64,000 bases of DNA from Pseudomonas wenzhouensis (lineage in GTDB: Bacteria; Pseudomonadota; Gammaproteobacteria; Pseudomonadales; Pseudomonadaceae). Below the pieces are notes generated by a model. The model did no database searches. It was not told where the DNA came from and saw only the letters and a list, made by a program, of their open reading frames with translations. The position numbers and the translations under genes were made by a program. Positions 43,121 through 62,260 of the stretch are shown in pieces (positions within the stretch are counted from its first letter, which is position 1; every line of letters starts with the position of its first letter). Where the stretch lies: positions 806,001-870,000 of the forward strand of contig NZ_CP072610.1 in NCBI RefSeq assembly GCF_021029445.1, in the 5' to 3' direction.

Positions 43121-43139
43121 GGTTATGAAAATTATTCCC
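43121..43139 (+). promoter_or_regulatory. Candidate Fur box before the piuB-like gene
   Basis: The 19-mer starting GGTTATGAAAATTATTCCC matches the Fur consensus GATAATGATAATCATTATC at 13 of 19 positions. It directly precedes TATAGA at 43141-43146, a likely -10 element, so Fur binding here would block transcription when iron is plentiful. Confidence 0.6.
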
Positions 43140-43183
43140 ATATAGAGTAGCCGCCCGTCGCAGTGGGTGAGGGTGGCTCCGTC

Positions 43184-45706
43184 GTGTTCAAGAAAATCAT
43201 CTTCCAGTTGCACTGGTTCTTCGGTATCAGCGCCGGCCTGGTGCTGGCCGTCATGGGCATAACCGGTGCCCTTTACAGTTTCGAGGGCGAGATCACCCGG
43301 GCGCTCAACGCCGAGCGTTGGCAGATTCAGCCCAGCGCACAAGGCCCTCTCACCCCTGGCGAGCTGGCTGCGAAGATCGAGGCCGCCACTGCTGATCGCG
43401 TTACCGGGCTGTGGGTCGATGGCCGCCATGACGGGCCTGGCATGGCTTTTCTGTCTCCGCCGCCGGGCGAGCGGCGTGGGCCGCGCATCGTCTTCGACCC
43501 CTATACCGGTGAAGTCCTTGCCGAGCCCGTTGGTCAGGACTTCTTCCACCTGATGCTGATGTTGCACCGCTTCCTGTCCATGGGCGAAGTGGGCAAGCAG
43601 ATCACCGCTGCCAGCACTCTGGCGCTGCTGTTCTTTTGTCTCTCCGGCCTCTATCTGCGTTGGCCGCGCCAGGCCTTGAGCTGGCGTACCTGGTTGACGC
43701 TGGACTGGAAGAAGAAGGGGCGTAGCTTCAACTGGGATCTGCACGCGGTCGCCGGCACCTGGGCGCTGCTGTTTTATCTCTGCGCCGGGCTCACGGGCCT
43801 GTACTGGTCTTATGACTGGTATCGCGAGGGGCTGACGCGTCTGCTCTCCGACACGCCGACCGAACAGCGTGGCGAGCGTGGTCAGCGCCAGGCGCCCGCT
43901 GGCCCTGCGCCGAACGTTGACTACGACGCCGTCTGGCAGAGCATCCAGCAAGCCGCCGGGCCCAAGCTGGTGGCCTGGAACCTGCGCCTGCCGCCAGTGG
44001 CGGGGCAGCCAGCGACGGTTTTCTACATACTCGATGGCGCCGAGCATGTGCGCGCCTTCAACCAGTTGCAGCTCGACCCGCAAAGCGGTGAAGTCAGTCG
44101 GCATGAGCGCTACGCCGAGAAGAGCTTCAAGGCGCAACTGCTGGCCAGCGTCTACGCCCTGCATGTGGGCGAGTACTTCGGCCTGCCTGGGCGCATCCTG
44201 ATGATGCTGGCCACGGCGGCCATGCCGCTGTTCTTCATCACCGGCTGGCTGCTGTACCTGGACCGCCGACGCAAGAAGCGCGCGGCCCAGGCGGCGCGCG
44301 GTACGCTGAAAACGGATGACTCGGCTGAAGGCTGGCTGGTGGGCTTCGCCAGCCAGAGTGGTTTTGCCGAGCAGTTGGCCTGGCAGAGTGCCGGGCAGTT
44401 GCAGGCCGCCGGTATCCCGGTGCGGGTCGAGCCGCTGTCGCGCCTCGATGCTGACAGCCTGCGGCAGACACGCAAGGCGTTGTTCGTGGTCAGCACCTTC
44501 GGTGACGGCGAGGCGCCGGACGCGGCGCAGGGCTTCGAGCGCAAGGTGCTGGGTGGCGCGCTGCCGCTCGAACAACTGAGCTATGCCGTGCTGGCGCTGG
44601 GCGACCGCCAGTACCAGCACTTCTGCGGCTTCGCCCGGCGCATCAACGACTGGCTGGGTTTGCAGGGTGCGCAGCGCCTGTTCGACAGCGTTGAGGTCGA
44701 TGGCGCCGATCAGGCCGCGCTGCAGCGTTGGCAACAGCAGCTGAGCGCGCTGACCGGCGCGGCGCCGGTTCGTTTCGAGGAGGCGCCCTGGCAGAGCTGG
44801 ACGCTGGCTGAGCGGCGCCTGCTCAACCCTGGCAGCCAGGGCGCGCCGGTGTTCTTCATCGGCCTGACGCCACCGGCGCAGAACACCTGGCAGGCCGGCG
44901 ACATTCTGCAGATTCGCCCGCGCCATGCGCCGAGTGTGGTGGAGTCCTGGTTGCAGCATTCCGGCTTCGAGGGCTTCGAGCCCGTCACGCTCGCGGGGCA
45001 AGCGACCAGCTTGCGCGAAGCGTTGGCTGAGCGGCAACTGCCAGACAGCTTCGCCCATCTGGTCGGCCTGCATGCCCAGGCACTGGTCGATGCGCTGGTG
45101 CCGTTGGGCACGCGTGAATATTCCATCGCCTCGGTGGCGGCCGATGGTGTGCTGCAGCTGATCGTACGTCAGGCGTTGCAAGCCGATGGCCGTCTGGGGC
45201 TGGGGTCTGGCTGGCTGACCGAGCACCTGCCGGACGGTGGTCAGTTGCTGGCGCGGGTAAGACGCAACAGCGGCTTCCACCTGCCGGACGACGACCGCCC
45301 GCTGATCCTGATCGGCAATGGCACCGGCCTGGCCGGCCTGCGTTCGCTGCTGCGCGCACGCGCACTAGCCGGGCAGGGGCGCAACTGGCTGCTGTTCGGC
45401 GAGCGCAACCGCGCCTGCGACTTCTTCTGTGGCGACGAACTGCAGGCGGCGCTGGCCACCGGCGAGCTGCAGCATCTGGATCTGGTGTTCTCCCGTGATC
45501 AGGCGCACAAGCGCTACGTGCAGGATCTATTGCGCGAGCAACACGAGCGCCTGCGTGTCTGGCTGGGCGAAGGGGCTGCCATTTATGTGTGCGGCAGCCT
45601 GCAGGGCATGGCCGGCGGCGTCGATGCTGCGCTGCGCGACTTGCTCGGCGACGAGGTGGTGCAGGAGCTGATCGAGGAAGGGCGTTATCGCCGTGACGTG
45701 TACTGA
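43184..45706 (+). CDS. piuB: PepSY membrane domain / flavodoxin / NADPH reductase fusion (PiuB-like)
   Basis: About 840 residues from a GTG at 43184 (after GAGGGTGG; a GTG at 43163 would add seven residues). The N-terminal 370 residues are a PepSY-associated membrane domain with about four helices and conserved L-H-x-x-F/W and L-M-L-H-R-F histidines. A flavodoxin domain (about 385-525; [17 protein letters not shown]) and a CysJ-type FAD/NADPH reductase ([17 protein letters not shown]; terminal Y-R-R-D-V-Y) follow. It can carry electrons from cytoplasmic NADPH across the inner membrane, most likely to reduce ferric siderophores. The match to P. aeruginosa PA4513 (piuB) is from memory. Confidence 0.85.
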
Positions 45707-46141
45707 GTGGACGAGCGGACGGTGCAAACCGCTCGCTCAAAGGTGCTGCAATGGCACTGAAACACGGCTGCGCCAAACTGGCTGAAAGCCCCGCCTGTTC
45801 AGCATTTCAGGGCGTTTTGTGTGATATCCGGAACGAGCTGAAATTAGGCAGAATTTCCGGTTGATCTGCGGGGCGCATGGTCTTAAAGTCCGCGCCCGAA
45901 CGTCCATGCTGGAAACGATCCATCCGGCTCAAGTACTGACGACGAGAGGTTGCCGGCCGGCGCATGGTCGGTACCGGTGATGCTCGGCGACATGCCTTGG
46001 GAAGTAGGCGAACCAAAGTGGGGAAACTGTCAGACGTTCAGGCACGCGCGTTGCGCGGCCACCCCCTACACGTAGCGGAACCTGTGAGCGGTTCTGCTGC
46101 CCGAATCCATGTGTTCCCGGTTTAGCCATTGGAGTTCCCGC
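45707..46141. promoter_or_regulatory. Long leader region upstream of speC
   Basis: This 435-bp stretch has no supported gene. An inverted repeat GAAATT-N6-AATTTC is at 45840-45857. Several hairpins can form farther on, for example GGGCGC with GCGCCC (about 45870-45900) and GAACC with GGTTC just before the gene. Such a long, structured leader ahead of a polyamine gene may contain post-transcriptional control, but I recognise no known riboswitch. Confidence 0.4.
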
Positions 46142-47305: not shown

Positions 47306-47371
47306 GGCACTGCAAGTCTTGACCCTGGCCGTAGGCCACCCTGCGTAGGGTGGCTGTGATGCCAGGTGACG

Positions 47372-47396
47372 AACGCCCACCTCGAGTGGGCGTTTT
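47372..47396 (+). terminator. Rho-independent terminator of speC
   Basis: AACGCCCAC pairs with GTGGGCGTT around CTCGA, followed by TT. A further hairpin (CCACCCT / AGGGTGG) lies just upstream at about 47336-47353. Confidence 0.85.
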
Positions 47397-47451
47397 CATG
47401 TCTGCCCAGAACACCTCATGTGTAATGAATCGTCGGTCCTGGACGCTCTAG

Positions 47452-48782: not shown

Positions 48783-48825
48783 CTAGGGGGCAGGATAAAA
48801 GCGTGGATATTTTTGTTACAAACAA

Positions 48826-48844
48826 GTTGATGTAAATCATTCAT
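48826..48844 (+). promoter_or_regulatory. Candidate Fur (or Anr-like) site upstream of the PiuA-like receptor
   Basis: The 19-mer GTTGATGTAAATCATTCAT matches the Fur consensus at 12 of 19 positions. It also contains TTGATGTAAATCAT, one base short of a full Anr box. Downstream TTGATT (48850-48855) and TACTAT (48872-48877) with 16-bp spacing form a plausible promoter. The IS right end is only 43 bp away. Which regulator uses it cannot be decided from sequence. Confidence 0.4.
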
Positions 48845-48907
48845 AAAGATTGATTAAGATTGAATCTCAAATACTATCGCGCACAGTTTCTATCCGGAGT
48901 GACTTTC

Positions 48908-51211
48908 GTGAGCGATAAACACAACAAGCGTACCCCTTTCCCCCAGCGTCGTTTGCTGGCCTCGGCTGTCAGCCTGGCTCTGCTGTCCGGTTATGCCGTG
49001 GCGCAAGAGACGGCGGTGGAACTGGACGACATCACCGTTCAGGGGCAACAGGACAACGGGTTCAAAGCCGACAAGGCGTCCTCTCCCAAGCAAACCGCCG
49101 CCCTACTCGATACCCCGCAGACGGTCAATGTCATTCCGGAGACGCTGTTCCGCCAGCAGAACGCCCGTACCCTGACCGATGTGCTGCGCAATACGCCCGG
49201 GATCAGCTTCGAGGCGGGCGAAAACGGTTTTGCCACCGGTACCAACAACTTCAGCCTGCGGGGTTTCAACACCAGCGGCAGCCTGTTCATCGACGGTGCG
49301 CGTGATAACGGCAGCTACACCCGCGACGTGTTCAACGTCGAGCAGGTCGAGGTGTTCAAGGGGCCGGCAGCCGACAATGGCCGCGGTGGCGCCGGTGGTT
49401 ACGTCAATCAGGTGACCAAGACGCCAACCCTGGAAAGCTTCATCGCCGGCGGCGCCAGCTTCGGCTTCGATCAGTACGACTCCGAGCCACGCCGCCGTGC
49501 CACGCTCGACACCAACCAGATCATCAATGACAGCAGCGCGTTTCGTCTCAACCTGCTGGTCGAGGACAGTGGCGTCGCGGGCCGTGAGCATGCCGAGAAG
49601 AACAGCTGGGGTATCGCCCCGTCGGTGGCCTTCGGTCTGGGCACCGACACTCGCGCCATAGTCGCTTACGAGCACGTCGAGATGAACGACCGCCCGGATC
49701 TGGGTGTGGCCGGCGTCACCCTGCGTGACCAGCTCAAAGGCGCCAACACACCACTCGATTCCTCGGTGTGGTCGGCCGATCGCGACAAGTACTTCGGCCT
49801 CAAGTCCGATTTCGACGACACCACCAGCGATGCGCTGATGTTCCGCCTCGAACATGATCTGTCCGCTGGCGTCACCCTCAGCAACCAGACACGTCTGGCC
49901 CGCGTTGATCGCCAGGCGCGCTACACCCACGTACTGGATGACGACAACAATGCCAATGCTGCGCTGGTCAATGTACAGCGTCAGCAGTATGACCGCGTCA
50001 ACACCTCGCTGAGCAACCTGACCAACCTGTCCACTCAGTTCGATACCGCAGGATTGCGCCACAACTTGTCGGCAGGTTTGGAACTGAGCCGTGAAAAGTC
50101 TGAGTCGCTGGGCTTCCAGTCGCAGACACTGCCGGGGCTGGTCAATGTCTTCGATCCGGATTGGGAGCGCAGCGTGCCAGCGGCATTGGCCCCGCGCGAT
50201 CGCACCAAGGTCGATGTGGATACGGCGGCGCTCTATGTCTACGACACCATCGAGATCAACCCCCAGTGGCAGGTGACCGGTGGTCTGCGTCTCGAGCAGT
50301 ACCAGGCGAGCATCAGCAACAAGCGTCTGGATGGCGCTGCTGCGCCGGGCGATGACTTCGATGACACCGAGCTGAGCCTCGGTGGCAAGTTGGGTGTGGT
50401 CTACAAGCCACTGCCCAACGGCAGCGTTTATGCGGCCTACGGTGTGTCCACCCAACCGCCGGGTTCCTACCTGTCCAACTCGGATATCTCCCGTAGCGAC
50501 CAGGGCTTGCCGGCGTTGATCAAGGGCGCCGATCCGGTGCGTGCGCACAGCTACGAGATCGGCACCAAGTGGGACTTCTTCGACAAGCGCCTGTCCACCA
50601 CTGCCGCGCTGTTCTACACGGAGAAGAAGAAGGTGGCGATCACCGGGCTGGACGTGGGTCAGACCGGGCCTGCCACACTCAAGGGCTATGGCGAACAAGT
50701 GGTTAAAGGCCTTGAGCTGGGTGTCAGTGGCAAGATCACCGACAACTGGGATGTCTTCGGCGGCATCGTGTTCATGGACAGCGAGCGCAAGCACAGCGCG
50801 TATCTGGATGACGTGCGTCGTCGTGCCAACAGTGGCGACTACGGCACTGAGCTGCGCACCGATGTTGACGAGCTGGCTTTCACGCCCAAGGTCTCCGGCA
50901 ACCTGTGGACGACTTACCGTCTGCCTGTCGGCCTGACTCTGGGGCTGGGCGCCCAGCATGTCGGCTCGTCCTACCTGGGGCGTCCGGATGACGTCGAGCG
51001 TATTGTCGCCAACGGTCGCTACGGCCGTGTGCCGAGCTACACCACCTTCGCCGCGATGGCCAGCTATGAGGTCAATGCCAATGTGGATGTGCGCCTGAAC
51101 ATCGACAACCTCACCAATGAGGAATATGTCAGCTCGGCCAACTGGCAGGGGCGCCGTGCCTTGCTGGGTGATCCGCGTACCTTCACCCTGAGCACCAACT
51201 TCCACTTCTAA
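48908..51211 (+). CDS. piuA: TonB-dependent siderophore receptor (PiuA/Fiu-like)
   Basis: About 767 residues from a GTG at 48908 preceded by CCGGAG; an in-frame TTG at 48860 would add 16. The signal peptide ends at A-V-A-Q near residue 33-35. A plug domain (L-L-D-T-P-Q-T-V-N-V-I-P; R-G-F-N-T-S-G-S-L-F-I-D-G) and a 22-strand barrel ending in N-F-H-F follow. The pattern is that of catecholate receptors Fiu/PiuA, which also import siderophore-drug conjugates. A piuC hydroxylase gene lies directly downstream, as in P. aeruginosa, supporting the name. The promoter is next to an IS, with a candidate Fur site. Confidence 0.85.
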   Translation: MSDKHNKRTPFPQRRLLASAVSLALLSGYAVAQETAVELDDITVQGQQDNGFKADKASSPKQTAALLDTPQTVNVIPETLFRQQNARTLTDVLRNTPGISFEAGENGFATGTNNFSLRGFNTSGSLFIDGARDNGSYTRDVFNVEQVEVFKGPAADNGRGGAGGYVNQVTKTPTLESFIAGGASFGFDQYDSEPRRRATLDTNQIINDSSAFRLNLLVEDSGVAGREHAEKNSWGIAPSVAFGLGTDTRAIVAYEHVEMNDRPDLGVAGVTLRDQLKGANTPLDSSVWSADRDKYFGLKSDFDDTTSDALMFRLEHDLSAGVTLSNQTRLARVDRQARYTHVLDDDNNANAALVNVQRQQYDRVNTSLSNLTNLSTQFDTAGLRHNLSAGLELSREKSESLGFQSQTLPGLVNVFDPDWERSVPAALAPRDRTKVDVDTAALYVYDTIEINPQWQVTGGLRLEQYQASISNKRLDGAAAPGDDFDDTELSLGGKLGVVYKPLPNGSVYAAYGVSTQPPGSYLSNSDISRSDQGLPALIKGADPVRAHSYEIGTKWDFFDKRLSTTAALFYTEKKKVAITGLDVGQTGPATLKGYGEQVVKGLELGVSGKITDNWDVFGGIVFMDSERKHSAYLDDVRRRANSGDYGTELRTDVDELAFTPKVSGNLWTTYRLPVGLTLGLGAQHVGSSYLGRPDDVERIVANGRYGRVPSYTTFAAMASYEVNANVDVRLNIDNLTNEEYVSSANWQGRRALLGDPRTFTLSTNFHF

Positions 51212-51228
51212 GCACGCTTGAGTGCCAG

Positions 51229-51260
51229 ACGCCCTGATTGCCACGCAGTCGGGGCGTTTT
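51229..51260 (+). terminator. Probable terminator after the PiuA-like receptor gene
   Basis: ACGCCC at 51229 pairs with GGGCGT at 51252-51257, then TTTT. The stem is interrupted, and piuC may still receive read-through. Confidence 0.6.
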
Positions 51261-51351
51261 CATTTTTGCGGTAGCAGATCGGACTTCTTTCCGGGTGCTG
51301 CTGCCCTTTAGAATCATTCGCAACGGCGACTGGCCCTGGAGAACCCCGAAC

Positions 51352-52032
51352 ATGATGCTGAGCATTCCCGGCGTGCTGAATGCCGAACAACTACGGCAAT
51401 GCCGCGCCGCGCTTGAAGGTGGCAACTGGCAGGATGGCCGGTTCACCGCCGGGCATCAGGCGGTGAACGTCAAGGCCAATCAACAGCTCGCTCAGGACGA
51501 TCCGCTGACCCAGCAACTGGGTGATTTCATCCTGGCCTGCCTGGCCCAGCATCCGCGTTTCATGGCCGCTGCGTTGCCACTGAAAGTGGTGCCGCCGCGT
51601 TTCAATCGCTATGCCGAAGGTGGCACCTACGGTGACCACATCGACAATGCGGTATTCAGCGTGCCGGGCACACCGCATCGGATTCGTGCCGACCTCTCGG
51701 CGACTCTGTTCTTCAGCGAACCGGACGAATATGACGGTGGCGAGCTGGTCGTTCACGACCATTTTGGCAGTCACCGGGCCAAGTTGCCCGCTGGCCATTT
51801 GCTGCTCTATCCCAGTGGCAGCCTGCACCGGGTCGAGCCGGTGACACGGGGGGCGCGCCTGGCAGCGTTCTTCTGGGTGCAGAGCCTGGTACGTGAGGAG
51901 CCTCAGCGCAGCGTCCTGCTTGAGTTGGATGACAGTATTCAGGCGCTGCGTGAGCAGGTACCCGACAGTCCCGAACTGGTACGACTGACCGGGATCTACC
52001 ACAACCTGTTGCGGCAATGGACGCAGACGTGA
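51352..52032 (+). CDS. piuC: Fe(II)/2-oxoglutarate-dependent hydroxylase PiuC (PKHD type)
   Basis: A 226-residue PKHD-type dioxygenase. Iron ligands are H-I-D in Y-G-D-H-I-D-N-A-V and the distal His in [15 protein letters not shown] supplies the 2-oxoglutarate arginine. It is homologous to E. coli YbiX and P. aeruginosa PiuC, which follow a Fiu/PiuA receptor gene; substrate is unknown. ATG at 51352 has CTGGAG about 10 nt before; an ATG at 51355 is equally possible. Confidence 0.9.
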
Positions 52033-52060
52033 GCCAGCTCCGCGCTTTCTGGGCTGCATG

Positions 52061-52082
52061 TCCCGGATTGCATCCGGTCTAC
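52061..52082 (-). repeat. Single CCCGGATTGCATCCGG-type repeat unit
   Basis: TCCCGGATTGCATCCGGTCT followed by AC matches the repeat pair at 13003-13064 with one change. It lies between piuC and the alpha-hydroxy-acid oxidase gene. Confidence 0.65.
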
Positions 52083-52114
52083 GAATCGACGATGACAACG
52101 CGCTGAGAATCGCC

Positions 52115-53227
52115 ATGACCTTGCCCAAGTTGCAGCAGATCCCGTCCACCATCGCCGCCGTAGCCGACTATGAGCCTTATGCCCGCGAACGCATGAGCGA
52201 ACAGGCCTGGGCCTATCTGGCCGGCGGCGCGGCGGATGAACTGACCCTGGCGGATAACCGGGCGGCGTTCGAGCGCCTGCGTCTGCGTAGCCGAGTGCTG
52301 CAAGACCTGAGCGCTGGCAATACGCGCCTGCGCCTGTTCGGTCAGGACTTCGATCATCCGATCTTTCTTGCACCGGTGGCCTACCAGAAGCTCGCCCATC
52401 CTGATGGTGAATTGGCCAGCGTGCTTGCGGCTTCAGCGTTGGGGGCCGGCATGGTGGTCAGCACTCAGGCCAGTGTCGAGCTGGAAGCCATCGCGGCGCA
52501 GGCGCAGGCGCCGCTTTGGTTCCAGCTGTATATCCAGCCGGATCGCGCATTCACTGCGGCCTTGATCCATCGAGCAGAAAGCGCCGGTTACCAGGCGCTG
52601 GTGCTGACGGTGGATGCCCCGGTCAACGGTGTACGCAATCGCGAGCAGCGCGCCGGTTTCGCCTTGCCGGCGGGTGTCGAGGCAGTCAATCTGCGTGGGA
52701 TGCGACCCTTGCAGGCACAGGCCGATCCGCAGAACGGCAGCCTGCTCCTGGGCGGCCCGTTGCTGGCGGCTGCGCCGACCTGGCGCGACCTCGCCTGGCT
52801 GCGCGAGCAGACGCGTTTGCCGATTCTGCTTAAGGGCATCATGAGCGGGGTCGATGCCGAGCAGGCGCTGGCGGCGGGCATGGATGGGCTGATCGTTTCC
52901 AACCATGGCGGTCGCACACTCGATGGTCTGCCTGCAACCATCGATGTGCTGCCCGAAGTCGCTGCGGTCGTGCAGGGTCGGGTGCCGCTGTTGCTCGACG
53001 GCGGTATTCGGCGTGGCAGTGACATCTTCAAGGCGTTGGCGTTGGGCGCCGATGCGGTACTGATAGGCCGGCCGTACGTGTATGGCCTGGCTACGGCTGG
53101 CGCTGTTGGCGTCGCCCATGTGCTGCAAATACTGCGCGCCGAGCTGGAAGTGGCCATGGCGTTGACAGGCTGTCGGAACCTGCAAGCAATTGCGCCCCAG
53201 TCAATCTGGAGTGCCCCCCGTGGCTGA
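52115..53227 (+). CDS. FMN-dependent alpha-hydroxy-acid oxidase/dehydrogenase
   Basis: A 370-residue TIM-barrel flavoenzyme of the lactate oxidase/glycolate oxidase family. The active-site base is in V-S-N-H-G-G-R-T-L-D, the FMN-phosphate loop is L-L-D-G-G-I-R-R-G-S-D, and L-L-K-G-I-M and L-T-V-D-A-P are conserved. It oxidises an L-2-hydroxy acid to the keto acid; the substrate is not certain. No membrane-binding insertion as in LldD is seen, so a soluble lactate-oxidase-like enzyme fits. It sits 82 bp after piuC, and co-occurrence with siderophore genes may indicate use of hydroxy acids as iron chelators, which is inference. Confidence 0.88.
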   Translation: MTLPKLQQIPSTIAAVADYEPYARERMSEQAWAYLAGGAADELTLADNRAAFERLRLRSRVLQDLSAGNTRLRLFGQDFDHPIFLAPVAYQKLAHPDGELASVLAASALGAGMVVSTQASVELEAIAAQAQAPLWFQLYIQPDRAFTAALIHRAESAGYQALVLTVDAPVNGVRNREQRAGFALPAGVEAVNLRGMRPLQAQADPQNGSLLLGGPLLAAAPTWRDLAWLREQTRLPILLKGIMSGVDAEQALAAGMDGLIVSNHGGRTLDGLPATIDVLPEVAAVVQGRVPLLLDGGIRRGSDIFKALALGADAVLIGRPYVYGLATAGAVGVAHVLQILRAELEVAMALTGCRNLQAIAPQSIWSAPRG

Positions 53228-53321: not shown

Positions 53322-53405
53322 ACCTGCGCCCACGGCGCTGAATGCCGACGGGCTGTCTGCCGCTTGCTCTGCGGAAACTCAGGCGTAGTCATGTGTGAGT
53401 TTTTT

Positions 53406-53424
53406 GTAAATAATTATCAATAGC
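53406..53424 (+). promoter_or_regulatory. Candidate Fur box before the second TonB receptor
   Basis: GTAAATAATTATCAATAGC matches the Fur consensus at 13 of 19 positions. It ends 19 bp before the start codon, so it would lie in the early transcribed region or overlap an additional downstream promoter. Confidence 0.55.
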
Positions 53425-53443: not shown

Positions 53444-55654
53444 ATGAGTGCCAGGAATAACTACCAAACCCTGCCTGCCAAACGTCTGTTAGTGACTGCT
53501 ATCGGGGTAGCCGTTGCGTCGCTTGCGCTGCCGGTAATGGCTGCCGAGTCGGTAAAGCTCGATAGCGTGACCGTCAAAGGAGAGCGCCAGGAGGGCTTCA
53601 AGACCAGCGAGTCGTCTTCGGTCAAGTACACAGCCCCCTTACTCGATACACCGCAAACCGTAACGGTAGTACCGCAGAAGGTGATTGCGCAGCAGCAGGC
53701 GTTGAGTCTGCGCCAGGTCTTGTCGAACGTTTCGGGTATCACTTTCACCGCAGGCGAGGGCGGTGGCGGTTCAGGCGACAGCATCAATATTCGTGGTTTC
53801 GGTGCCAACGCCAATATGCAGATCGACGGGTTGCGCGACAGCACCCAGACCAACCGTACCGACACCTTCAATATCGAGTCGGTCGAGGTGATCAAAGGGC
53901 CCAACTCGGTATTCGGCGGCAGTGGGACCACCGGTGGCTCCATCAATCAGGTCACCAAAGCGCCGGTACAGCGCGATTTCACTCGCCTCGGCGCTAGCCT
54001 GGGTACCGACAGCTATCATCGCCTGACACTCGACAGCAATCAGACGCTGGAGGATGTCGGCGTCGACAGCGCGTTCCGTTTGAACCTGATGACACACGAA
54101 AACGATGTGCCCGGTCGTGAGCAGATCGACCGCAAGCGTTGGGGCATCGCACCTTCGCTCGCGCTGGGGCTGAGTGAGGACACGCGCCTGACGCTCAGTT
54201 ACTTCCATCAGACCGATGATCAGTTGCCCGATTATGGTGTCCCGGCAATCGATGGCAAGAAGATCGCCGGTGTCGACCGTGACGCCTATTTCGGTTGGAA
54301 GAATCTGGACAAGGACGACATCAAGACCGATGCCTTCACGGTCAAGTTCGAGCACACCTTCAACGACAGCCTGAGCCTGCAGAATCTGACGCGCTACAGC
54401 CTGATCGACCGCAATACGGTGATCTCGGCTTCTCACGTCAACACCACGGGTGTGCCGGCAGGTAACTATCGCCCCGCCGGCCCGCAGGCTTACGGGCGTG
54501 ATATCAACAGTGAGTTGCTGATCAATCAGACCAACCTGCGCGCCGACTTCGAGACCTTGGGGTTGTTGCACAGCCTGGCCACCGGGGTCGAGGTATCGCG
54601 TGAGCACTTCGATCTGAAGACCTACAACCACGGCCTGGGCTCAGGCGCAGCCGCGTATCCGGGTAACGGCTATTCGCTGGACAATCCGCCGGGTTACTGG
54701 GCTGGCCCGGCCAACAAGACATTCACTGCCGACACCTCGACGCGCCTGGACAATCAGGCTGTCTACGTCTTCGACACCATTGCCCTGAACCCGCAATGGG
54801 ATGTGAATCTGGGGCTGCGCTACGACTGGATCGAGGGTGACTACGAAAGCACGGCGCTACCGTCAGGTGCGCTAACCACGCTTGATACCCGTGATGAAAA
54901 GCTCAGTGGACGAGCCGGCCTGGTCTACAAACCCACCGATAATGGGCGCATCTATGTGGCCTACGGCACCTCGTTCAATCCATCGGCCGAGTTCCTGGTG
55001 ACCACGGGCGGTGGAGTGTCGGCAGCGACCGCCGATCTGTCGCCGGAAAAGAACAAGACCTGGGAGCTGGGCACCAAGTGGGAACTGCTCGACAAGCGTC
55101 TTGAGGTCGATGCCGCGCTGTTCCGGGTGGAAAAGTCCAATGCCCGAGAAACCATGGCTGACGGCAGCACCCAGCTGGCCGGCGAACAGCGTGTGCAAGG
55201 TATCGAGCTGGGCCTGACGGGCCACATCACCGAGCAGTGGGATGTGTTTGCCAATTACACGGTACTGAGCAGCGAAACCCTCAAGGCTGCGGACACAGCC
55301 GCCGGGATCGCGCGCGAGGGGCAGGCGTTGGCCAATACGCCGCCGCGTTCGTTCAACCTGTGGACGGTCTACGAGCTACCCGCCGGATGGTCCCTGGGTT
55401 ATGGCGCACGTTACGTTAGCGAACGTAATGTCAGCTCCAGTGGCAGCGCCAAGCTCGACGCGTACTGGCTGCATAACGCCATGGTCGGCTATGCGGTCAA
55501 TGAAAACCTGGATCTGCAGCTGAACCTCAACAACCTCTTCGATGAGGACTACGTCGAGCGCGTGCGCCAAACGCCAGGCACCTCGGCGCGTTCGTCCGCT
55601 ATCGAATACGGTGATGGTCGCTCGGCCATTCTGTCGGCGACCTACAGCTTCTGA
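53444..55654 (+). CDS. TonB-dependent catecholate-type siderophore receptor
   Basis: A 736-residue receptor. Signal peptide of about 33 residues (V-M-A-A-E-S cleavage region), plug domain (L-L-D-T-P-Q-T-V-T-V-V-P; R-G-F-G-A-N-A-N-M-Q-I-D-G-L; E-V-I-K-G-P-N-S-V-F-G) and a barrel ending in A-T-Y-S-F with terminal aromatic. Closely related in architecture to the PiuA-like protein 4.5 kb upstream but clearly distinct in barrel loops. Probably binds ferric catechols; ligand is inferred only from family. It has its own promoter and terminator. Confidence 0.87.
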   Translation: MSARNNYQTLPAKRLLVTAIGVAVASLALPVMAAESVKLDSVTVKGERQEGFKTSESSSVKYTAPLLDTPQTVTVVPQKVIAQQQALSLRQVLSNVSGITFTAGEGGGGSGDSINIRGFGANANMQIDGLRDSTQTNRTDTFNIESVEVIKGPNSVFGGSGTTGGSINQVTKAPVQRDFTRLGASLGTDSYHRLTLDSNQTLEDVGVDSAFRLNLMTHENDVPGREQIDRKRWGIAPSLALGLSEDTRLTLSYFHQTDDQLPDYGVPAIDGKKIAGVDRDAYFGWKNLDKDDIKTDAFTVKFEHTFNDSLSLQNLTRYSLIDRNTVISASHVNTTGVPAGNYRPAGPQAYGRDINSELLINQTNLRADFETLGLLHSLATGVEVSREHFDLKTYNHGLGSGAAAYPGNGYSLDNPPGYWAGPANKTFTADTSTRLDNQAVYVFDTIALNPQWDVNLGLRYDWIEGDYESTALPSGALTTLDTRDEKLSGRAGLVYKPTDNGRIYVAYGTSFNPSAEFLVTTGGGVSAATADLSPEKNKTWELGTKWELLDKRLEVDAALFRVEKSNARETMADGSTQLAGEQRVQGIELGLTGHITEQWDVFANYTVLSSETLKAADTAAGIAREGQALANTPPRSFNLWTVYELPAGWSLGYGARYVSERNVSSSGSAKLDAYWLHNAMVGYAVNENLDLQLNLNNLFDEDYVERVRQTPGTSARSSAIEYGDGRSAILSATYSF

Positions 55655-55762: not shown

Positions 55763-57334
55763 CTAGTAAAGGTCGCGCCGGTAACGTCCGGCTTCGCGCA
55801 AGGCCGTCACCTGCTGCTGGCCGAGCAATCCGTGCAGCAGCGCATCGACCTCTTCGCCCATGCCTTGCAGGCTGCCGCACAGCAGCAGGCTGGCGCCACG
55901 TTCGATCCAGGCGCGCAGCTCATCAGCAGCGTCGCGCAGCAGGTGCTGTACGTAGACCGCTTGCGCCTGATCGCGGGAAAACGCCAGGTCGAGACGGCTG
56001 ATGTGGCCGCTGCGCTGCCAGGTGCGTAGCTCGTCGGCGAAGAACAGGTCGCAGGCGGCGTTGCGTTCGCCGAACAGCAACCAGTGGCCATGCTGGCCCA
56101 GGCGCTCACGCTCGCGCAGGTGGGCGCGCAGGCCGGCCAGGCCGGTGCCGTTGCCGATCAGGATCAGCGGGCCGCTGGCTGTCGGCAGGTGAAAGCTCGG
56201 GTTGCTGCGAATACGCAGCTCGACAGCCCCGCCGATGGGCGCGTATTGGCACAGCCAGCCGGAACCCAGGCCGGGCTGGCCTTTGGCGTCCTGCAGCAGG
56301 CGCACCAGCAATTCCAGCGCGCCGTCATCAGGCAGCGAGGCGATGGAGTAGTCACGATGCGCCAGCAGGGGCAGCGTTTGCAGCACGGCTTCGGCATCCA
56401 GGCCGCGCAGGCTTTGCAGGTCATCCGGCAATTGCCGGCGAGCCAGTTGTGCGCTCAGGGATTGGCCATCGCCAAGGCGTAGCTGGCCATCGAGCTGGAG
56501 CGTGCGCAGCAACGCCTCGACTCGCTCGGTCGGCTGGCAGGGGGCGACTTCGGCGATATCGCCGGCTTGCCAGGCCGGCATGTAGTCTGTTGGCTGCAAG
56601 CGCAGGTGGAACGCGGGGCGCCCTTGGCTGGTGGGGTTCATACAGTGACGTGCGAGCAGTTGCCAGGGCTGGTAATCGGCTGCCTGCCAAGCGGCGAAGT
56701 GCTGCCCGCCAGCCAGCACGCCGAGTTGCTGCTGCCACTGACGCAGCACGGCCGGGTCGCCACGGTCGGCTTCCAGGCGGTCGAACAGGGGATTCGCGCC
56801 GAGGCCTTGCAGTCGCTGGTCCAGTTGCCTAGCAAAACCACAGAAATGCCGATATTGGCGATCCCCCAGGCCGAGCAGGGCGAAGTCGAGCCGGCTCAGG
56901 TCCGGTTGGGCCTGGTCGAGCTCACGCAGCCAGCGCGCCGCGTGATCCGGCGCCTCGCCTTCGCCGTAGGTGCTGGCTATCAGTAGCAGGCGGCTGCTGG
57001 AGGCCAGGCGTTCGGCGCGCAGGGCATCGCAGGGCAGTGCCTGTGCAGCGATGCCGGCGCTGCGCAGTTGTTCGGCGCTCAGCTCGGCAAATGCCCGCGC
57101 CTGGCCGCTCTGGCTGGCGTAGGCGACGAACAAGGGCTCGCCTGTCTCGCTGACGGGGACGGCGCAGGCGGAGCGGGGACGCCAGCTTCGCACGCAGATC
57201 CCTAGCCAGGCGAGCACGGCCAGCGCGGCGCTGATGTGCCGTGGCGGCTGCAGCCAGAACAGCAGGGCGGCCAGGCTCAGGCAGGCAAGTGCGGGCCAGT
57301 AGCGCTGCAGGAAGGGGGCGAGTTGGGGCGTCAT
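55763..57334 (-). CDS. Membrane-anchored flavodoxin/FAD/NADPH reductase (CysJ-like)
   Basis: A 523-residue diflavin reductase. Two N-terminal membrane helices (about 12-30 and 33-50) anchor it. The FMN/flavodoxin domain (66-205) has Y-A-S-Q-S-G-Q, S-T-Y-G-E-G-E-A-P-D and L-G-L-G-D-R-Q-Y; the FAD domain has H-R-D-Y-S-I-A-S; the NADPH domain has G-N-G-T-G-L-A-G-L and ends Y-R-R-D-L-Y. It resembles the C-terminal two thirds of the piuB-like fusion. It is the last gene of the minus-strand cluster with DUF4198, DUF2271, PepSY and a TonB receptor, and is the likely cytosolic electron source for them. A hairpin and repeat separate it from the DUF4198 gene. Confidence 0.87.
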   Translation of the reverse strand: MTPQLAPFLQRYWPALACLSLAALLFWLQPPRHISAALAVLAWLGICVRSWRPRSACAVPVSETGEPLFVAYASQSGQARAFAELSAEQLRSAGIAAQALPCDALRAERLASSSRLLLIASTYGEGEAPDHAARWLRELDQAQPDLSRLDFALLGLGDRQYRHFCGFARQLDQRLQGLGANPLFDRLEADRGDPAVLRQWQQQLGVLAGGQHFAAWQAADYQPWQLLARHCMNPTSQGRPAFHLRLQPTDYMPAWQAGDIAEVAPCQPTERVEALLRTLQLDGQLRLGDGQSLSAQLARRQLPDDLQSLRGLDAEAVLQTLPLLAHRDYSIASLPDDGALELLVRLLQDAKGQPGLGSGWLCQYAPIGGAVELRIRSNPSFHLPTASGPLILIGNGTGLAGLRAHLRERERLGQHGHWLLFGERNAACDLFFADELRTWQRSGHISRLDLAFSRDQAQAVYVQHLLRDAADELRAWIERGASLLLCGSLQGMGEEVDALLHGLLGQQQVTALREAGRYRRDLY

Positions 57335-57380
57335 GATGATCCGTGGTGCGGCTGCAATTCAGGAGGGGCGTGGTGCTCAT

Positions 57381-57402
57381 TCCCGGATTGCATCCGGGCT
57401 AC
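57381..57402 (-). repeat. Single CCCGGATTGCATCCGGGCTAC repeat unit
   Basis: A near-identical copy of the repeat at 13003-13064 in the spacer between the diflavin reductase and DUF4198 genes. Confidence 0.7.
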
Positions 57403-57442
57403 GGTGGCTGCATACCCGCAATGGTTGCCGCAGGTGTGCAGG

Positions 57443-57476
57443 ATGCGCCCCCTGGTCATGTGCGAAGGGGGCGCAT
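57443..57476 (-). terminator. Strong hairpin between the DUF4198 and diflavin reductase genes
   Basis: A perfect 11-bp stem, ATGCGCCCCCT with AGGGGGCGCAT, has a 12-nt loop and starts 4 bp after the DUF4198 stop codon. No T-run follows, so it may attenuate or protect rather than end transcription. Confidence 0.55.
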
Positions 57477-57480
57477 TGGC

Positions 57481-58353
57481 TCAGGGGGCGAGCACTTCGA
57501 GGGTTGCGCTGTAGCTGGCGCGGCGGCGGGTGGCGGGCGCCTGTGCCTGGTCGCTTTCCAGCTCGGCTTCCAGCCAGTACATGCCGGCCTCGGGCCAGGT
57601 GATGCTGACACGGCCCTGGGCATCGCTCTTCAATTCGATCTCGCCGAGCTGGTCGCGATAGCGGTTGCCGCCGGGGATCACACTCACTGCCACATCAGCG
57701 GCAGGCTTGCCGTCGAGCAGCAGGATGAACTCGGCCGCTTCGCCCGCGAACAGGTCATTGGGGTGGGTCACCGGCTGCAGTTCCAGACCCTTGCCGGTGG
57801 TGGACAGCACGGTGTCGGTGGTTTTGCCGGAGGTGACGAAGACTTCCATACGACTGGAGGTCTGGCTGACCTGCAACTCTTCGGCGGCCGCCGGGATTTC
57901 CTTGGCCAGGGCCTCGGCGCTGCCCATCCAGCGCCGCTGTTGGCCGTTCTCCTTGTAGGAGGCGAACAGGCCGTGGTTGGTGATGCTCAGCTTGTAGGTG
58001 CCCTTCTGTGAAAGGGGTAGGTCGAAGCTGCTGCGGTAGCGGCCGATATGGCCATTTTGCGGTTGCAGCAGGCTGCCGTCCGGTGCCTGGATCTGCAGTT
58101 GCGCGGCCGGGCGCAGACGCATGCCGGGTGGCCCACCGGCCGGTGCTTGATCCATTGCGCCGACACCGGCGATACGCAGCGGGAAGTGCTCGAAGTAGAA
58201 CAGATCATTGGAGACGGCGGCGTCGACGGTGATCCACGGCTCCTCACCGGACAGTACGGTGGCCGAGGGCAGCATCCAGGCGCGGTGCGCCTGAGCGGAG
58301 AAAGGCAGGCACAGGGCCAGGGTCAGTGCGGCCCATTTGCAGGTCTTGTTCAT
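57481..58353 (-). CDS. DUF4198 periplasmic protein
   Basis: A 290-residue secreted protein, signal peptide MNKTCKWAALTLALCLPFSA with cleavage after A-Q-A, so the mature chain would start at His23 (H-R-A-W-M-L-P-S). Such an N-terminal H-x-x-W-x-x-P is typical of DUF4198/NikM-like domains, and a terminal histidine can bind a transition metal. The rest is beta-rich with F-Y-F-E-H-F-P-L and Y-W-L-E-A-E. AAGGAAA ribosome site. It starts 10 nt after the DUF2271 stop. Role is inferred to be metal handling. Confidence 0.83.
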   Translation of the reverse strand: MNKTCKWAALTLALCLPFSAQAHRAWMLPSATVLSGEEPWITVDAAVSNDLFYFEHFPLRIAGVGAMDQAPAGGPPGMRLRPAAQLQIQAPDGSLLQPQNGHIGRYRSSFDLPLSQKGTYKLSITNHGLFASYKENGQQRRWMGSAEALAKEIPAAAEELQVSQTSSRMEVFVTSGKTTDTVLSTTGKGLELQPVTHPNDLFAGEAAEFILLLDGKPAADVAVSVIPGGNRYRDQLGEIELKSDAQGRVSITWPEAGMYWLEAELESDQAQAPATRRRASYSATLEVLAP

Positions 58354-58363
58354 GGTGATTTCC

Positions 58364-58876
58364 TTATGGGGTGAGTTCGAGGGTGATGGCGCCCAGCTCG
58401 TGCTGGCCCTGGGCGCTGGCCTGGTTGCGCTGCTGCGGCGGCCAGGTGAACGGCACACGCAGCAGTTCGCGGCCGCCCACTTCGCGTGCAGCCTCTACGA
58501 CCAGTTGGTATTCACCCGCCGCCAGGTTCTGCAACTGCGGGCTGTCGCTGGCGAAGCTCAGGCTGTGCTTGCCTACGGCGCGGGTGGCGCCGCTGATGCC
58601 ATCGACCGGCATGTCCAGGTTGCGCCCGCTGCGGCGCCACCACTGGCGCAGATCCTTGAGCCATTTCTCGCCCTCGGCATCCTTCATCTTCATGTCGTAC
58701 CACACCGTCAGATCGGCGGCGTGACGGTTGCCCGCATCCTCCAGCCAGACGGCCACATAGGGGCGGTGGTATTCGGCGACCTGCAGGCGCGGGATCTCGA
58801 CCTCGACGGTCATCTGTGCCGCCAGCAGCGGGGCGCTGAGCAGGCTGGTAAAGGCGAACAACAAGGGTCTGGACAT
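58364..58876 (-). CDS. DUF2271 periplasmic protein with a flavinylation-like SGAT motif
   Basis: A 170-residue protein with a 20-residue signal peptide (L-L-A-A-Q). Residues 92-98 read D-G-I-S-G-A-T, matching the D-x-x-S/T-G-A-T pattern on which ApbE attaches FMN through the threonine (here T98). A W-W-R-R-S-G-R patch and K-M-K-D-A-E-G-E precede it. DUF2271 has been linked to ApbE-dependent extracytosolic redox systems. GAGGTGG site before the ATG. Spaced 10 nt from both neighbours, so translated with PepSY and DUF4198 genes. Covalent FMN is a prediction. Confidence 0.85.
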   Translation of the reverse strand: MSRPLLFAFTSLLSAPLLAAQMTVEVEIPRLQVAEYHRPYVAVWLEDAGNRHAADLTVWYDMKMKDAEGEKWLKDLRQWWRRSGRNLDMPVDGISGATRAVGKHSLSFASDSPQLQNLAAGEYQLVVEAAREVGGRELLRVPFTWPPQQRNQASAQGQHELGAITLELTP

Positions 58877-58886
58877 GGCCACCTCG

Positions 58887-59486
58887 TCAATGGATGAAAA
58901 CAAGCGCCAGCAGCAGCGGCAGCAACAGGCCCAGACCCGTGAGTGGCCAGGTCGAGGGGCGGCTGCCGGCATGGCGGTGCAGGAGCAGCAGGCCAGTGAG
59001 GCTGAACAACACGCAGACTGCGGCGAAGATATCGATGAGCCAGCTCCAGGCCGTGCCGGTATGGCGGCCCTTGTGCAGGTCGTTGAAGTAAGCGATCCAG
59101 CCACGGTCGGTGGCTTCGTATTCCAGCTCGCCGGAGTGCAGATCGAGGCTCAGCCAGGCGTCGCCACCTGGGCGCGGCAGGGCGATATACAGCTCGCCAT
59201 CCGACCACTCGGCGCTACGCCCGTCGAGGCGCACTTGCAGGCTCTGCTCCAGCCATTGACGCAAGGCCAGCGGCAAACCCTGATTGGGCGTTTGCTGCAG
59301 CAACTGCGCCTGCAACTCGGCGGGCAGTTGCGCCTGCCGCTGCTGTACCTGCGGGCGGGCTTCGATCTGCCCGGCGTGGTTGAGGGTGATGCCGGTGATG
59401 GCGAACAGCAGCATGCCGGCCAGGCAGAGCGCGGAACTGATCCAGTGCCATTGGCGCAGGGTGCCGAGCCAGGGGAGTCGGGGCAT
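58887..59486 (-). CDS. PepSY-associated inner-membrane protein
   Basis: A 199-residue protein with three hydrophobic helices (about 15-35, 148-171, 181-198) and a periplasmic domain between the first two. Conserved histidines are H14, H36, H138 and H142 (in D-L-H-K-G-R-H-T-G) and H170, candidates for haem ligands in PepSY_TM electron carriers such as FpvG-type reductases. Immediately upstream of the DUF2271 gene. A split version of the N-terminal part of the piuB-like fusion. The start has no strong ribosome site, so it could differ by a few codons. Confidence 0.82.
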   Translation of the reverse strand: MPRLPWLGTLRQWHWISSALCLAGMLLFAITGITLNHAGQIEARPQVQQRQAQLPAELQAQLLQQTPNQGLPLALRQWLEQSLQVRLDGRSAEWSDGELYIALPRPGGDAWLSLDLHSGELEYEATDRGWIAYFNDLHKGRHTGTAWSWLIDIFAAVCVLFSLTGLLLLHRHAGSRPSTWPLTGLGLLLPLLLALVFIH

Positions 59487-59596
59487 GTGCAGCGTGCTCG
59501 AAAGAAGGAGGCGGGGATTCTATTCCGGGTGTTTCTGAGGCTGGTTCTTATTGGCAAGGGCTATGCGTTCGTCTGCCGATGACGTTCACCAGTGAA

Positions 59597-59622
59597 GCCG
59601 CCGCTCCGGATGGAGCGGCGGC
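59597..59622 (-). terminator. Hairpin between TonB receptor gene and PepSY gene
   Basis: A perfect 11-bp stem, GCCGCCGCTCC with GGAGCGGCGGC, has a GGAT tetraloop. It lies 7 bp after the receptor stop with no T-run, so it may partly limit transcription into the downstream genes. Confidence 0.6.
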
Positions 59623-59628
59623 ATGGCA

Positions 59629-61860
59629 TCAGAACTCGATAACCGTCGACAGCCAGAGACGGCGACCTTCCTCGAGGGTGCCACTGGTGGACTGCGCGAT
59701 CTGCGTATAGTCCGAGGCCCAGCCGGTGGTGCCGGTGTTGGTGGTGTAGTAGCTGCCGCTGGTGAAGTCCCGGTCGAACAGGTTGTAGATCGTGGCGCTG
59801 AAGGTCACGTTCTGCGAGGCCTTGAAGGAGCCGCCGAGGTGGAAGACCTCATAGGCTTTCAGATCACCGACTGCGTCGAACAGGGTCTGGTTTGCGGCAG
59901 TCAGGTTCTCGTAGCGATCAGTAAAGCGAGCGCGTTCGCCGCGATATTCGCCTTTGAACCACAGTGTCAGGCGGTCATTGGCTGCCCAGCTCAGGCGAGC
60001 GTGAGCCATATGCTCGGGGGTGTTGGTGAGTGGCGCGCCCTTGTTGATGCCACTTTTCTGCTCGCTGTCGGTGTAGGTGTAGTTGACGGCCAATGCCCAG
60101 GCAGGGGCGAACTCCCAGCGGCCTGCAACCTCGACACCCCGGGTGACGGCTTCGCCGATATTCACGCTCTGGGCGAAGTTCTCCTGAGTGAAGCCCGAGC
60201 CGTAGCTTACGCAGCCTGGCTGATTCGGATTCGCCGTGTAGAAACAGTTGGCCAGCGGGGTGCCGTCATCGATCTTGTCCTTGAACTTGTTATGGAACAG
60301 GGTGACGTTGGCGTTGAAGTCGGAAAGGTTGTCGTAGTACGCACCGATCTCGGTGTTGGTGGTGATTTCCGGATCAAGGTCGGGGCTACCGATAGTGATT
60401 GTCGAACCCTGGCCCGTTACACCATTGATGCCGTCATGCAACTGGTTGAGTGTCGGGGTCTTGTAGCCACGGCTTACGCCGCCCTTCAGGGTCCAGGTGT
60501 CCGTTGTGTTCCACACCAGGTAGGCGCGCGGGCTGATATGGCCACCAAAGGCTTCATGATCCTCGTAGCGCGCGCCCAGAGTCAGTGCCAGGTCTTCACG
60601 CAGGCGCCACTCATCTTCGGCGAACAGCGCCCAGGACGTTTGCTGGAAATCCTTATCCGCGATGCTGTCGGTGACCTTGGCGTCCCACCACTGGGCGCCG
60701 ATGGTTGCGATGTGAGATTCCCCCAGCGGGGCGACCAGCTTGCTATCGACAACCAGGTCGGTTGACTTCAGCTTGCGGTCGTCACCGATGATGATCGACG
60801 GGAAACCGGTGTAGGCGTTACCAATCGGGTTACCTGGAATGGTGCGGCCCAAGGTTTCCGTGGTGTTGTGGGTGACGCTGCTTTCCAGGGTGCCGAAACT
60901 CAAACGCCCGGTATGGCTGAGGGCGATCTGATCGCGTTCGAAGCGCAGTTCATCCTTGTAGCCATTGGCTCGCAAAGGCGCATTGGTGGTACAGCCATCG
61001 GTTGCGCTGCCGCCGTTCTTGCCATCGAGATTGCCCAACTGACAGTTATCGTTGTTGTAGACCTGACGGCCACGTTCGAAGTCGAGGGCGAAATCATTGG
61101 ATTCGTTCGGGGTTAGCGTCAGGCGCGTACCGAAGGTTGTATTACGGCCTTCGACGGGCGATGCACCGCGTTTACTGACAGTGCTGTTGTCATCGAACTG
61201 CAGATCGGATTCGCCCCGGTCATACAGGCTGCCACGTACGGCGAGCCCCAGTAGACCTTCGACCAGTGGGCCGCTGGCGTAGAGGCTGGTACTGCTTGCC
61301 TCGCCGTAATCGCGGTTTTCCTGGAACGTATGATCCAGGCTCAGGCTTGCTCCCCATTCCTGGGCGACCTTGCGCGTGATGATATTGACTACGCCGCCCA
61401 TGGCATCGGAGCCGTACAGGGTCGACATCGGCCCGCGAATGACCTCGATGCGCTCGATAGCGGACATGGGCGGCATGAAGCTGGTAGCGGTTTCGTTGAA
61501 GCCATTGGGCGTGACATTACCGGCGGTGTTCTGCCGACGGCCGTCAATCAGAATCAGGGTGTAGTCGCTGGGCAGGCCGCGAATGCTGATATTCAGACCA
61601 CCAGTCTTGCCCGTGCCCTGGCGCACGTCGATGCCTTCCACATCTTCCAGTGCCTGTGCCAGGTTGCTGTAGCGCTTCTGCTGCAATTCCTCGCGGCTGA
61701 TCACGCTGATGCTGGCGGGGGCTTCGGTGATCTTCTGCTCGAAGCCGGAGGCGCTGACGACCACATCGCCAAGGGCGATAGGCTCGTTGGCCTGGGCGCC
61801 GAAGCTGGCGGCCAAGGCAATGGCGCTGGCCAATGCGGTGCGGGAATTGAGAGCGGGCAT
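59629..61860 (-). CDS. TonB-dependent outer-membrane receptor (CirA/FepA-like)
   Basis: A 743-residue receptor. Signal peptide of 24 residues (F-G-A-Q-A-N cleavage region), TonB box region G-D-V-V-V-S-A, plug domain with R-G-L-P-S-D-Y-T-L-I-L-I-D-G-R-R and E-V-I-R-G-P-M-S-T-L-Y-G-S-D-A-M-G-G-V-V-N-I-I-T, and a barrel ending in S-T-V-I-E-F. This subgroup (IrgA/CirA/FepA) differs from the two Fiu-like receptors. It heads the minus-strand cluster with the PepSY-DUF2271-DUF4198 genes, suggesting a ligand that is reduced after import. Confidence 0.9.
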   Translation of the reverse strand: MPALNSRTALASAIALAASFGAQANEPIALGDVVVSASGFEQKITEAPASISVISREELQQKRYSNLAQALEDVEGIDVRQGTGKTGGLNISIRGLPSDYTLILIDGRRQNTAGNVTPNGFNETATSFMPPMSAIERIEVIRGPMSTLYGSDAMGGVVNIITRKVAQEWGASLSLDHTFQENRDYGEASSTSLYASGPLVEGLLGLAVRGSLYDRGESDLQFDDNSTVSKRGASPVEGRNTTFGTRLTLTPNESNDFALDFERGRQVYNNDNCQLGNLDGKNGGSATDGCTTNAPLRANGYKDELRFERDQIALSHTGRLSFGTLESSVTHNTTETLGRTIPGNPIGNAYTGFPSIIIGDDRKLKSTDLVVDSKLVAPLGESHIATIGAQWWDAKVTDSIADKDFQQTSWALFAEDEWRLREDLALTLGARYEDHEAFGGHISPRAYLVWNTTDTWTLKGGVSRGYKTPTLNQLHDGINGVTGQGSTITIGSPDLDPEITTNTEIGAYYDNLSDFNANVTLFHNKFKDKIDDGTPLANCFYTANPNQPGCVSYGSGFTQENFAQSVNIGEAVTRGVEVAGRWEFAPAWALAVNYTYTDSEQKSGINKGAPLTNTPEHMAHARLSWAANDRLTLWFKGEYRGERARFTDRYENLTAANQTLFDAVGDLKAYEVFHLGGSFKASQNVTFSATIYNLFDRDFTSGSYYTTNTGTTGWASDYTQIAQSTSGTLEEGRRLWLSTVIEF

Positions 61861-62260
61861 CGATCTACTCCTGGCAGTAAGGGGGTGCAGTCGTAAGACT
61901 TGCGAACGGCCGGGATGATAGTGATTTGCATATAAGGTTCAATTGCGGATGATATCGAGAAACCTGGAATTGCTCCGCAAGTGCCGTGAATGCTGGCTTG
62001 CGGGGAGGTGTAAATTTTGTAAATGCGACTGATTCTTGATGATTTGAAGGGCTTTGCGTCTGTTTCTGGCCTGCATGAGTTGCTGTCGACAGGAGGCTTG
62101 TACGCTGTCCGGCCGTGAGTGGGCGTGGCGCTCGGTCAAGGGTTCGTGGTGGCGGATCTATCGCGGTCAGGCGGGTTGTGAAACACCCTCAACCGTCACG
62201 CCCGCGAAAGCGGGAGCCCGGTGCCCGTCGGTCCCGGCATGACGGCTTTTGCAGTGTTTC
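61861..62260. promoter_or_regulatory. Intergenic region with receptor promoter and a CCGTCACG/CATGACGG repeat
   Basis: This 400-bp stretch has no supported gene. A weak Fur-like match (GATAGTGATTTGCATATAA, 61917-61935, 11 of 19) lies about 57 bp before the receptor start. From 62193 to 62246 there is an inverted repeat, CCGTCACGCCCGCGAAAGCG to CATGACGG, of a type widely dispersed in bacterial genomes. The rest appears empty. Confidence 0.5.
62193..62246. repeat. CCGTCACGCCCGCGAAAGCG-type inverted repeat
   Basis: The outer arms CCGTCA and TGACGG pair, and inner CCCGC / GCGGG forms a small stem. The size (about 54 bp) and look are those of a small non-coding palindromic repeat. Confidence 0.6.

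Follow-up and report, generated by a model that had tools for sequence, protein, structure and literature searches.

The window analysed here is a stretch of 64,000 nucleotides (nt) from Pseudomonas wenzhouensis (NZ_CP072610.1, positions 806,001 to 870,000), and on its minus strand, between positions 55763 and 61860, five open reading frames follow one another in the order TonB-dependent receptor, PepSY membrane protein, DUF2271 protein, DUF4198 protein and diflavin reductase. Open frames and Pfam families agree in this with an earlier note on this DNA, which had described five consecutive genes from a receptor to a CysJ-like flavoprotein and had proposed that they form an electron relay. The cluster comprises the following features, lengths being given in amino acids (aa):

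59629..61860, minus strand: CirA/FepA/CfrA-like TonB-dependent receptor, 743 aa (Pfam TonB_dep_Rec/Plug)
58887..59486, minus strand: PepSY_TM_like_2 membrane protein, 199 aa (Pfam 8.3e-85)
58364..58876, minus strand: DUF2271 periplasmic protein with predicted flavin site Thr98, 170 aa (Pfam 1.4e-52)
57481..58353, minus strand: DUF4198 secreted protein, 290 aa (Pfam 6e-55)
57335..57480, minus strand: spacer with strong hairpins, the site of apbE in many relatives
55763..57334, minus strand: flavodoxin plus FNR-type diflavin reductase with hydrophobic N-terminus, 523 aa (Pfam Flavodoxin_1 1.2e-25, NAD_binding_1 4.6e-06)

Layout of the cluster and its proteins

The PepSY and DUF2271 genes are 10 nt apart, as are those for DUF2271 and DUF4198, which is the spacing that had been noted before. 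The gaps between receptor and PepSY genes (142 nt) and between DUF4198 and reductase genes (146 nt) are wider and both contain hairpins, with fold z-scores of -1.73 for the former and -4.49 for positions 57335-57483. Because of this difference in spacing and hairpins, the inner three genes are probably co-transcribed, while the receptor and reductase genes may or may not join them. A strong hairpin at 57443-57476 (GCGCCCCC...GGGGGCGC) lies directly 3' of the DUF4198 stop codon, lacks a T-run and is followed by CCCGGATGCAATCCGGG, which we take to be a REP-like element. An ApbE hidden in the DUF4198-reductase gap was considered and rejected, as the gap measures only 146 nt and is occupied by hairpins. 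Scans for promoters and terminators gave background level only.

An AlphaFold2 model of the PepSY protein (pLDDT 85.9) places three transmembrane helices at residues 5-38, 145-175 and 177-198, and five histidines are largely conserved among 80 homologs (His14 in 79, His37 in 72, His138 in 79, His172 in 69 and His199 in 78; the alignment was built on 41 sequences), so that the description as a three-helix protein with histidines holds. Neither a phmmer search of the sequence against solved structures (up to E 1) nor a Foldseek search with the model (at E 0.001) found a match. The motif DGISGAT attributed to DUF2271 is likewise where it had been placed, SGAT being residues 95-98 and the threonine T98, and a hydrophobicity scan finds the N-terminus of the protein hydrophobic.

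The closest named relative of the reductase comes from Pseudomonas sediminis (92%), and its FAD_binding_1 match falls below the cut-off. An assignment as CysJ itself is rejected, since the NCBIfam cysJ equivalog gives 231.8 bits against a cut-off of 668.15. An alignment of 491 columns gives 46% identity between the protein and the diflavin portion of a PepSY_TM fusion encoded 10 kb away. The membrane anchor claimed for the reductase finds partial support: there are two short hydrophobic segments at the N-terminus, but the highest Kyte-Doolittle mean over 19 residues is 1.42, and no membrane helix is called at 1.5. Among relatives, 45 of 45 scorable reductases carry a 17-residue N-terminal stretch of at least 1.3, scorable meaning that a motif located the N-terminus, which left 27 of 72 unscored, including most from Pseudomonadaceae. 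Membrane anchoring is plausible on these grounds.

Conservation of the core and probable flavinylation in trans

For comparison, the best 80 of 590 confirmed DUF2271 matches were taken as loci from an alignment-based scan of named genomes with two conserved peptide patterns, a sample that leans to close relatives. The gene set recurs in these 80 loci, which span several classes of Pseudomonadota: PepSY is encoded directly upstream of DUF2271 in 79, DUF4198 downstream in all 80 and the reductase downstream in 72 (L067 and L105 being counted on short matches of 33-34%). Where no reductase is seen, four loci end early (L083, L087, L099 and L107) and four do not (L079, L081, L084 and L110). Conservation on this scale rules out that the gene order arose by chance, and judged by sequence the core of the cluster is a conserved operon. 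The same order, with ApbE, is also found in an annotated plasmid record of Acidovorax and in two Cupriavidus replicons, whereas in Sphingomonas and Methylobacterium PepSY-DUF2271-DUF4198-ApbE stand behind a TonB-dependent receptor gene and one for an Fe2+-dependent dioxygenase, and the reductase is lacking. In Pseudoalteromonas, PepSY and DUF2271 are fused in one protein encoded behind a receptor. The receptor is the part of the order that does not hold generally: a same-strand receptor gene lies upstream in 17 of 23 Pseudomonadaceae loci versus 3 of 57 others (at L047 the upstream DNA is too short to show one), Pseudomonadaceae being assigned by the genus labels Pseudomonas, Stutzerimonas, Serpens and Thiopseudomonas, with L043, labelled only Gammaproteobacteria, counted among the 23.

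An apbE gene is present in 47 of the 80 loci, and in 44 of them it is situated between the DUF4198 and reductase genes; in Pseudomonadaceae, none of the 23 loci has it there, and all 23 keep the reductase. The only ApbE match in the genome of P. wenzhouensis lies at C1:3030289, about 2.2 Mb from the cluster, where it closes an nqrABCDEF operon for the Na+-translocating NADH:quinone oxidoreductase (Na+-NQR); most of these gene names are read from protein sequences, and the FMN_bind domain of NqrC and the ApbE are confirmed by profile. This NqrC carries DGLAGAT, which resembles the DGISGAT of DUF2271. The 4.45-Mb genome contains a single DUF2271 match and two FMN_bind proteins.

Every one of the 81 DUF2271 proteins has Thr98, with or without apbE in the operon, and the residues preceding it vary ([ST][GSA][AP]T). 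ApbE was found in each of 50 genomes behind the loci, of which 30 have a cluster lacking a cis apbE (23 Pseudomonadaceae plus L055, L067, L068, L081, L084, L097 and L105) and 20 were chosen from the 47 with a cis ApbE, L083, L087 and L099 having been left out; 11 of those 20 have a single ApbE match. In 298 Pseudomonadaceae genomes, ApbE occurs in 263 and DUF2271 over cut-off in 113, and ApbE accompanies DUF2271 in 112 of the 113 positive genomes versus 151 of the 185 others (Fisher p 4.8e-7, kinship ignored). The lone exception is a 75%-complete genome. The DUF2271 proteins of Pseudomonadaceae fall into two score classes, at about 136-180 bits and 112-128 bits (G074, a fragment match, is excluded from both). 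Of the genomes that have only the type encoded in the window, 73 of 74 possess one ApbE, and of those that have only the other type, 25 of 30 possess two. A second ApbE is sometimes encoded a few kb from a DUF2271 gene of the low class, for example in G254 and G216.

Because Thr98 is invariant regardless of a cis apbE and ApbE is present in the genomes that lack one in the cluster, flavin mononucleotide (FMN) is probably attached to DUF2271 in trans by the distant ApbE. This is what the earlier note had supposed on finding no ApbE in the window. It is improbable that, instead, DUF2271 is not flavinylated in Pseudomonadaceae, apbE having been lost, the NQR ApbE being blind to DUF2271 and the PepSY haem passing electrons straight to the chelate, the mechanism proposed for FoxB. 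The 0/23 count for cis apbE would fit such a loss, and FoxB is described, in the part of the literature accessible to us, as haem-mediated with a donor unknown and no flavin partner named; yet the threonine is kept in the proteins without a cis apbE as well, though the preceding residues vary, all 30 of the corresponding genomes encode ApbE, and the NqrC next to the sole ApbE has a motif resembling that of DUF2271. Going by the title of a reference cited in Meheust et al. (2021), the ApbE of Pseudomonas stutzeri matures NosR, so that a pseudomonad ApbE would be known to serve a partner other than DUF2271. The literature searched, subscription papers and supplementary tables lying outside that search, yielded no claim that the version in Pseudomonadaceae depends on the ApbE of the NQR operon.

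Receptor, regulation and the metal

The best NCBIfam match of the receptor is NF010012, at 660 bits and under its cut-off of 924, and the closest solved structures are those of the colicin I receptor. Upstream of its gene lies a further feature:

61916..61930, minus strand: Fur-like box TGCAAATCACTATCA, agreeing with 11 of 14 consensus positions and ending about 56 nt upstream of the ATG of the receptor gene

The consensus scored here is that of Fur. The score of this box was reached by one of 200 shuffles made in two-base blocks, which are not strictly dinucleotide-preserving. Similar boxes stand at similar positions in relatives, for example TGCGAATCACTATCA in L062, and with a threshold of at least 11/14, which we chose and which the box in the window just attains, they are found before 12 of 19 receptor genes and before 34 of 78 PepSY genes, the mean best score in shuffles being about 8 (loci with less than 200 nt upstream were skipped). 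A box before PepSY is rarer where a receptor gene precedes it, 2/19 versus 32/59 (p = 0.001), as though one promoter, that of the receptor, drove both. This pattern fits one iron-controlled unit headed by the receptor in Pseudomonadaceae.

Alternatively, the operon might consist of PepSY, DUF2271 and DUF4198 only, the receptor being a neighbour with no tie to it and the reductase standing as a gene of its own. The hairpins in the 142- and 146-nt gaps point that way, as does the absence of an upstream receptor from most other loci. Against it stand the reductase in 72 of 80 loci, a receptor orthologue at 17 of the 23 loci from Pseudomonadaceae and the pattern of Fur-like boxes, which together make this arrangement rather doubtful.

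With a strict 19-base Fur consensus and up to three mismatches, no match was found in the window. A 15-base Fur palindrome, used after the 19-base consensus gave nothing, finds 70 sites in the genome versus 8 for a reversed control; four are in the window and three of these stand shortly before a gene for an iron-type receptor or a PepSY protein. An iron-uptake neighbourhood lies at 43126-53227, with a Fur-like site at 43126-43140, and another receptor lies beyond it:

43163..45706, plus strand: PepSY_TM-Flavodoxin-NAD_binding fusion of the PiuB/PA4513 type, 847 aa (Pfam), with the Fur-like site 43126-43140 just upstream
48860-51211: Fiu-like receptor
51349-52032: PiuC-like Fe2+/2-oxoglutarate dioxygenase
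52058-53227: FMN-dependent dehydrogenase, related to lactate dehydrogenases
53444-55654: second Fiu-like receptor; the Fur-like box close upstream of it at 53405-53419, TGTAAATAATTATCA, is a better one (2 mismatches)

In other genomes (L008:3867-9905, L011:3935-9963, L102 and L116), a Fiu-like receptor and PiuC precede PepSY-DUF2271-DUF4198-ApbE, and the PiuA-PiuC pair and the PepSY reductase system may for this reason act on one iron source.

The mature DUF4198 protein is predicted to start at His23; this start and the secretion of the protein were judged by eye from the N-terminus, and a hydrophobicity scan finds no stretch of at least 1.5. The protein matches the metal-binding DUF4198/Zcp fold. 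A histidine forms the mature N-terminus in 81 of 81 homologs, mature residue 18 is Trp in 79 of 81, the window protein included (by residue number, not structurally aligned), and His34 and His175 are conserved; 40 of the 81 sequences were aligned, and L098 was dropped as its mature start is uncertain. In the solved DUF4198 protein of Ideonella, as far as the accessible report goes, nickel is bound with a dissociation constant of 18 nM and His18 is a ligand, and structures of Zcp carry copper, zinc and cobalt. The histidines of the window protein may define an iron-type rather than a nickel-type site.

Nickel, cobalt, zinc or copper might be handled instead of iron, in which case DUF4198 would act as metal chaperone and the PepSY chain would reduce copper, for instance. 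Besides the metals in the Ideonella and Zcp structures, this is favoured by the PepSY_TM protein CrpH of Bordetella, which is linked to copper, and by CC3060 and CC3061 of Caulobacter, listed in a study of the Zur regulon, both according to partial sources. However, Fur-like boxes precede the window receptor and its relatives, the Caulobacter operon is described in the available excerpt as responding strongly to Fur and iron, the receptor is CirA-like with Fiu/PiuC-like neighbours, and, by residue number only, the window protein has Trp where the nickel type has His18. A metal other than iron seems quite unlikely on balance.

Proposed electron path and relation to known systems

We consider it about 75% probable that the cluster is a PepSY-like, flavinylation-dependent operon for ferric-chelate reduction that is flavinylated in trans. 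NADPH would reduce the diflavin reductase at the cytoplasmic face of the membrane, from where electrons would pass to one or more haems that the three-helix PepSY protein would bind through its histidines at either side, and next to FMN bound covalently to Thr98 of periplasmic DUF2271, the FMN being attached in trans by the sole ApbE encoded in the Na+-NQR operon. The flavin of DUF2271 would then reduce a ferric chelate or siderophore that the CirA-like receptor imports, or else iron bound to DUF4198 through its mature N-terminal histidine and metal-binding fold. The redox potentials of intact catecholate siderophores lie below that of NADPH, so that weaker chelates or partly degraded catecholates would be likelier substrates. 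Of the relay put forward in the earlier note, the part formed by the four core genes is backed by their conservation, by Thr98, by the Fur-like boxes and by published homologues; the receptor as a fixed member is not.

Several points of this interpretation are weak. By comparison of the loci, the receptor is a lineage-specific, swappable partner, since other lineages have none or different receptor types in its place, and PepSY, DUF2271 and DUF4198 are what stays together. That the metal is iron is a prediction. There is no FeoB_C match in the genome and only weak FeoB_N matches, which is unexpected given several genes of the ferric-reductase type; an Nramp profile gives one match over cut-off (77 bits, no clear MntH) and one below. 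A more far-reaching proposal goes as follows: Pseudomonadaceae would have dropped the operon apbE and tied maturation of the iron reductase to the NQR ApbE, and DUF4198 would be an iron chaperone, with a His1/His34/His175 site unlike the solved nickel type, that takes iron reduced by FMN-DUF2271 and hands it to an importer other than FeoB. We regard this as a tentative and rather unlikely elaboration.

As Meheust et al. (2021; PMC8238504) and related papers describe such systems, the cluster appears to be a further member of a published system, distinctive in its dependence on a shared ApbE. Among 3220 PepSY-like flavinylation clusters, the accessible portion of that study counts DUF2271 in 2833, DUF4198 in 1500 and a TonB receptor in 231; it also reports that a DUF2271 protein from another bacterium receives its flavin at the motif threonine from the cognate ApbE, and proposes a function in iron reduction and uptake. 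The window cluster shares with these a three-helix PepSY protein (PF03929/PF16357), DUF2271 with the SGAT form of the [S/T]GA[S/T] site and, judged from its hydrophobic N-terminus, a signal peptide, secreted DUF4198, as sometimes there a TonB receptor, and an ApbE in the genome, but it lacks the apbE that is frequent and not obligatory in those clusters, and its NAD(P)H diflavin reductase is separate and not fused. Haem sites of PepSY proteins are discussed in a later paper (PMC11334425, 2024), and Alteromonas DUF4198/DUF2271 pairs have been linked to iron-responsive receptors (PMC7190382), each as far as these sources were available. The operon CC3059-3063 (CCNA_03155-03159) of Caulobacter crescentus has a PepSY-family protein, DUF2271, DUF4198 and a sulfite-reductase-like flavoprotein in the same order, differing in an apbE between DUF4198 and reductase and in having no receptor among its five genes; the accessible descriptions give it as Fur-regulated, with disruption lowering fitness in EDTA.

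Resemblance to other PepSY reductases is more limited. The fusion in the window is assigned to the PiuB (PA4513) type from architecture and literature, not from homology to PA4513. Its reductase part is the one that resembles the reductase of our cluster (46% identity), but it is a single chain whose PepSY_TM region is complete, spanning 355 residues, and it contains no DUF2271; a fused-type match at L056 was disregarded, being probably the reductase of that locus itself. FoxB (7ABW) is similar in that transmembrane segments flank a PepSY domain and histidines lie close to either end of the membrane helices, but there is no sequence match and the fold match is weak, and FoxB is described, in the part available, with four transmembrane helices and two PepSY domains.

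The genome of P. wenzhouensis would thus offer a natural example of a single ApbE apparently acting in respiration, through NqrC, as well as in iron reduction, through DUF2271, with one match each for ApbE and DUF2271 in 4.45 Mb. Flavinylation of a PepSY system in trans may thereby be tested directly with one deletion.

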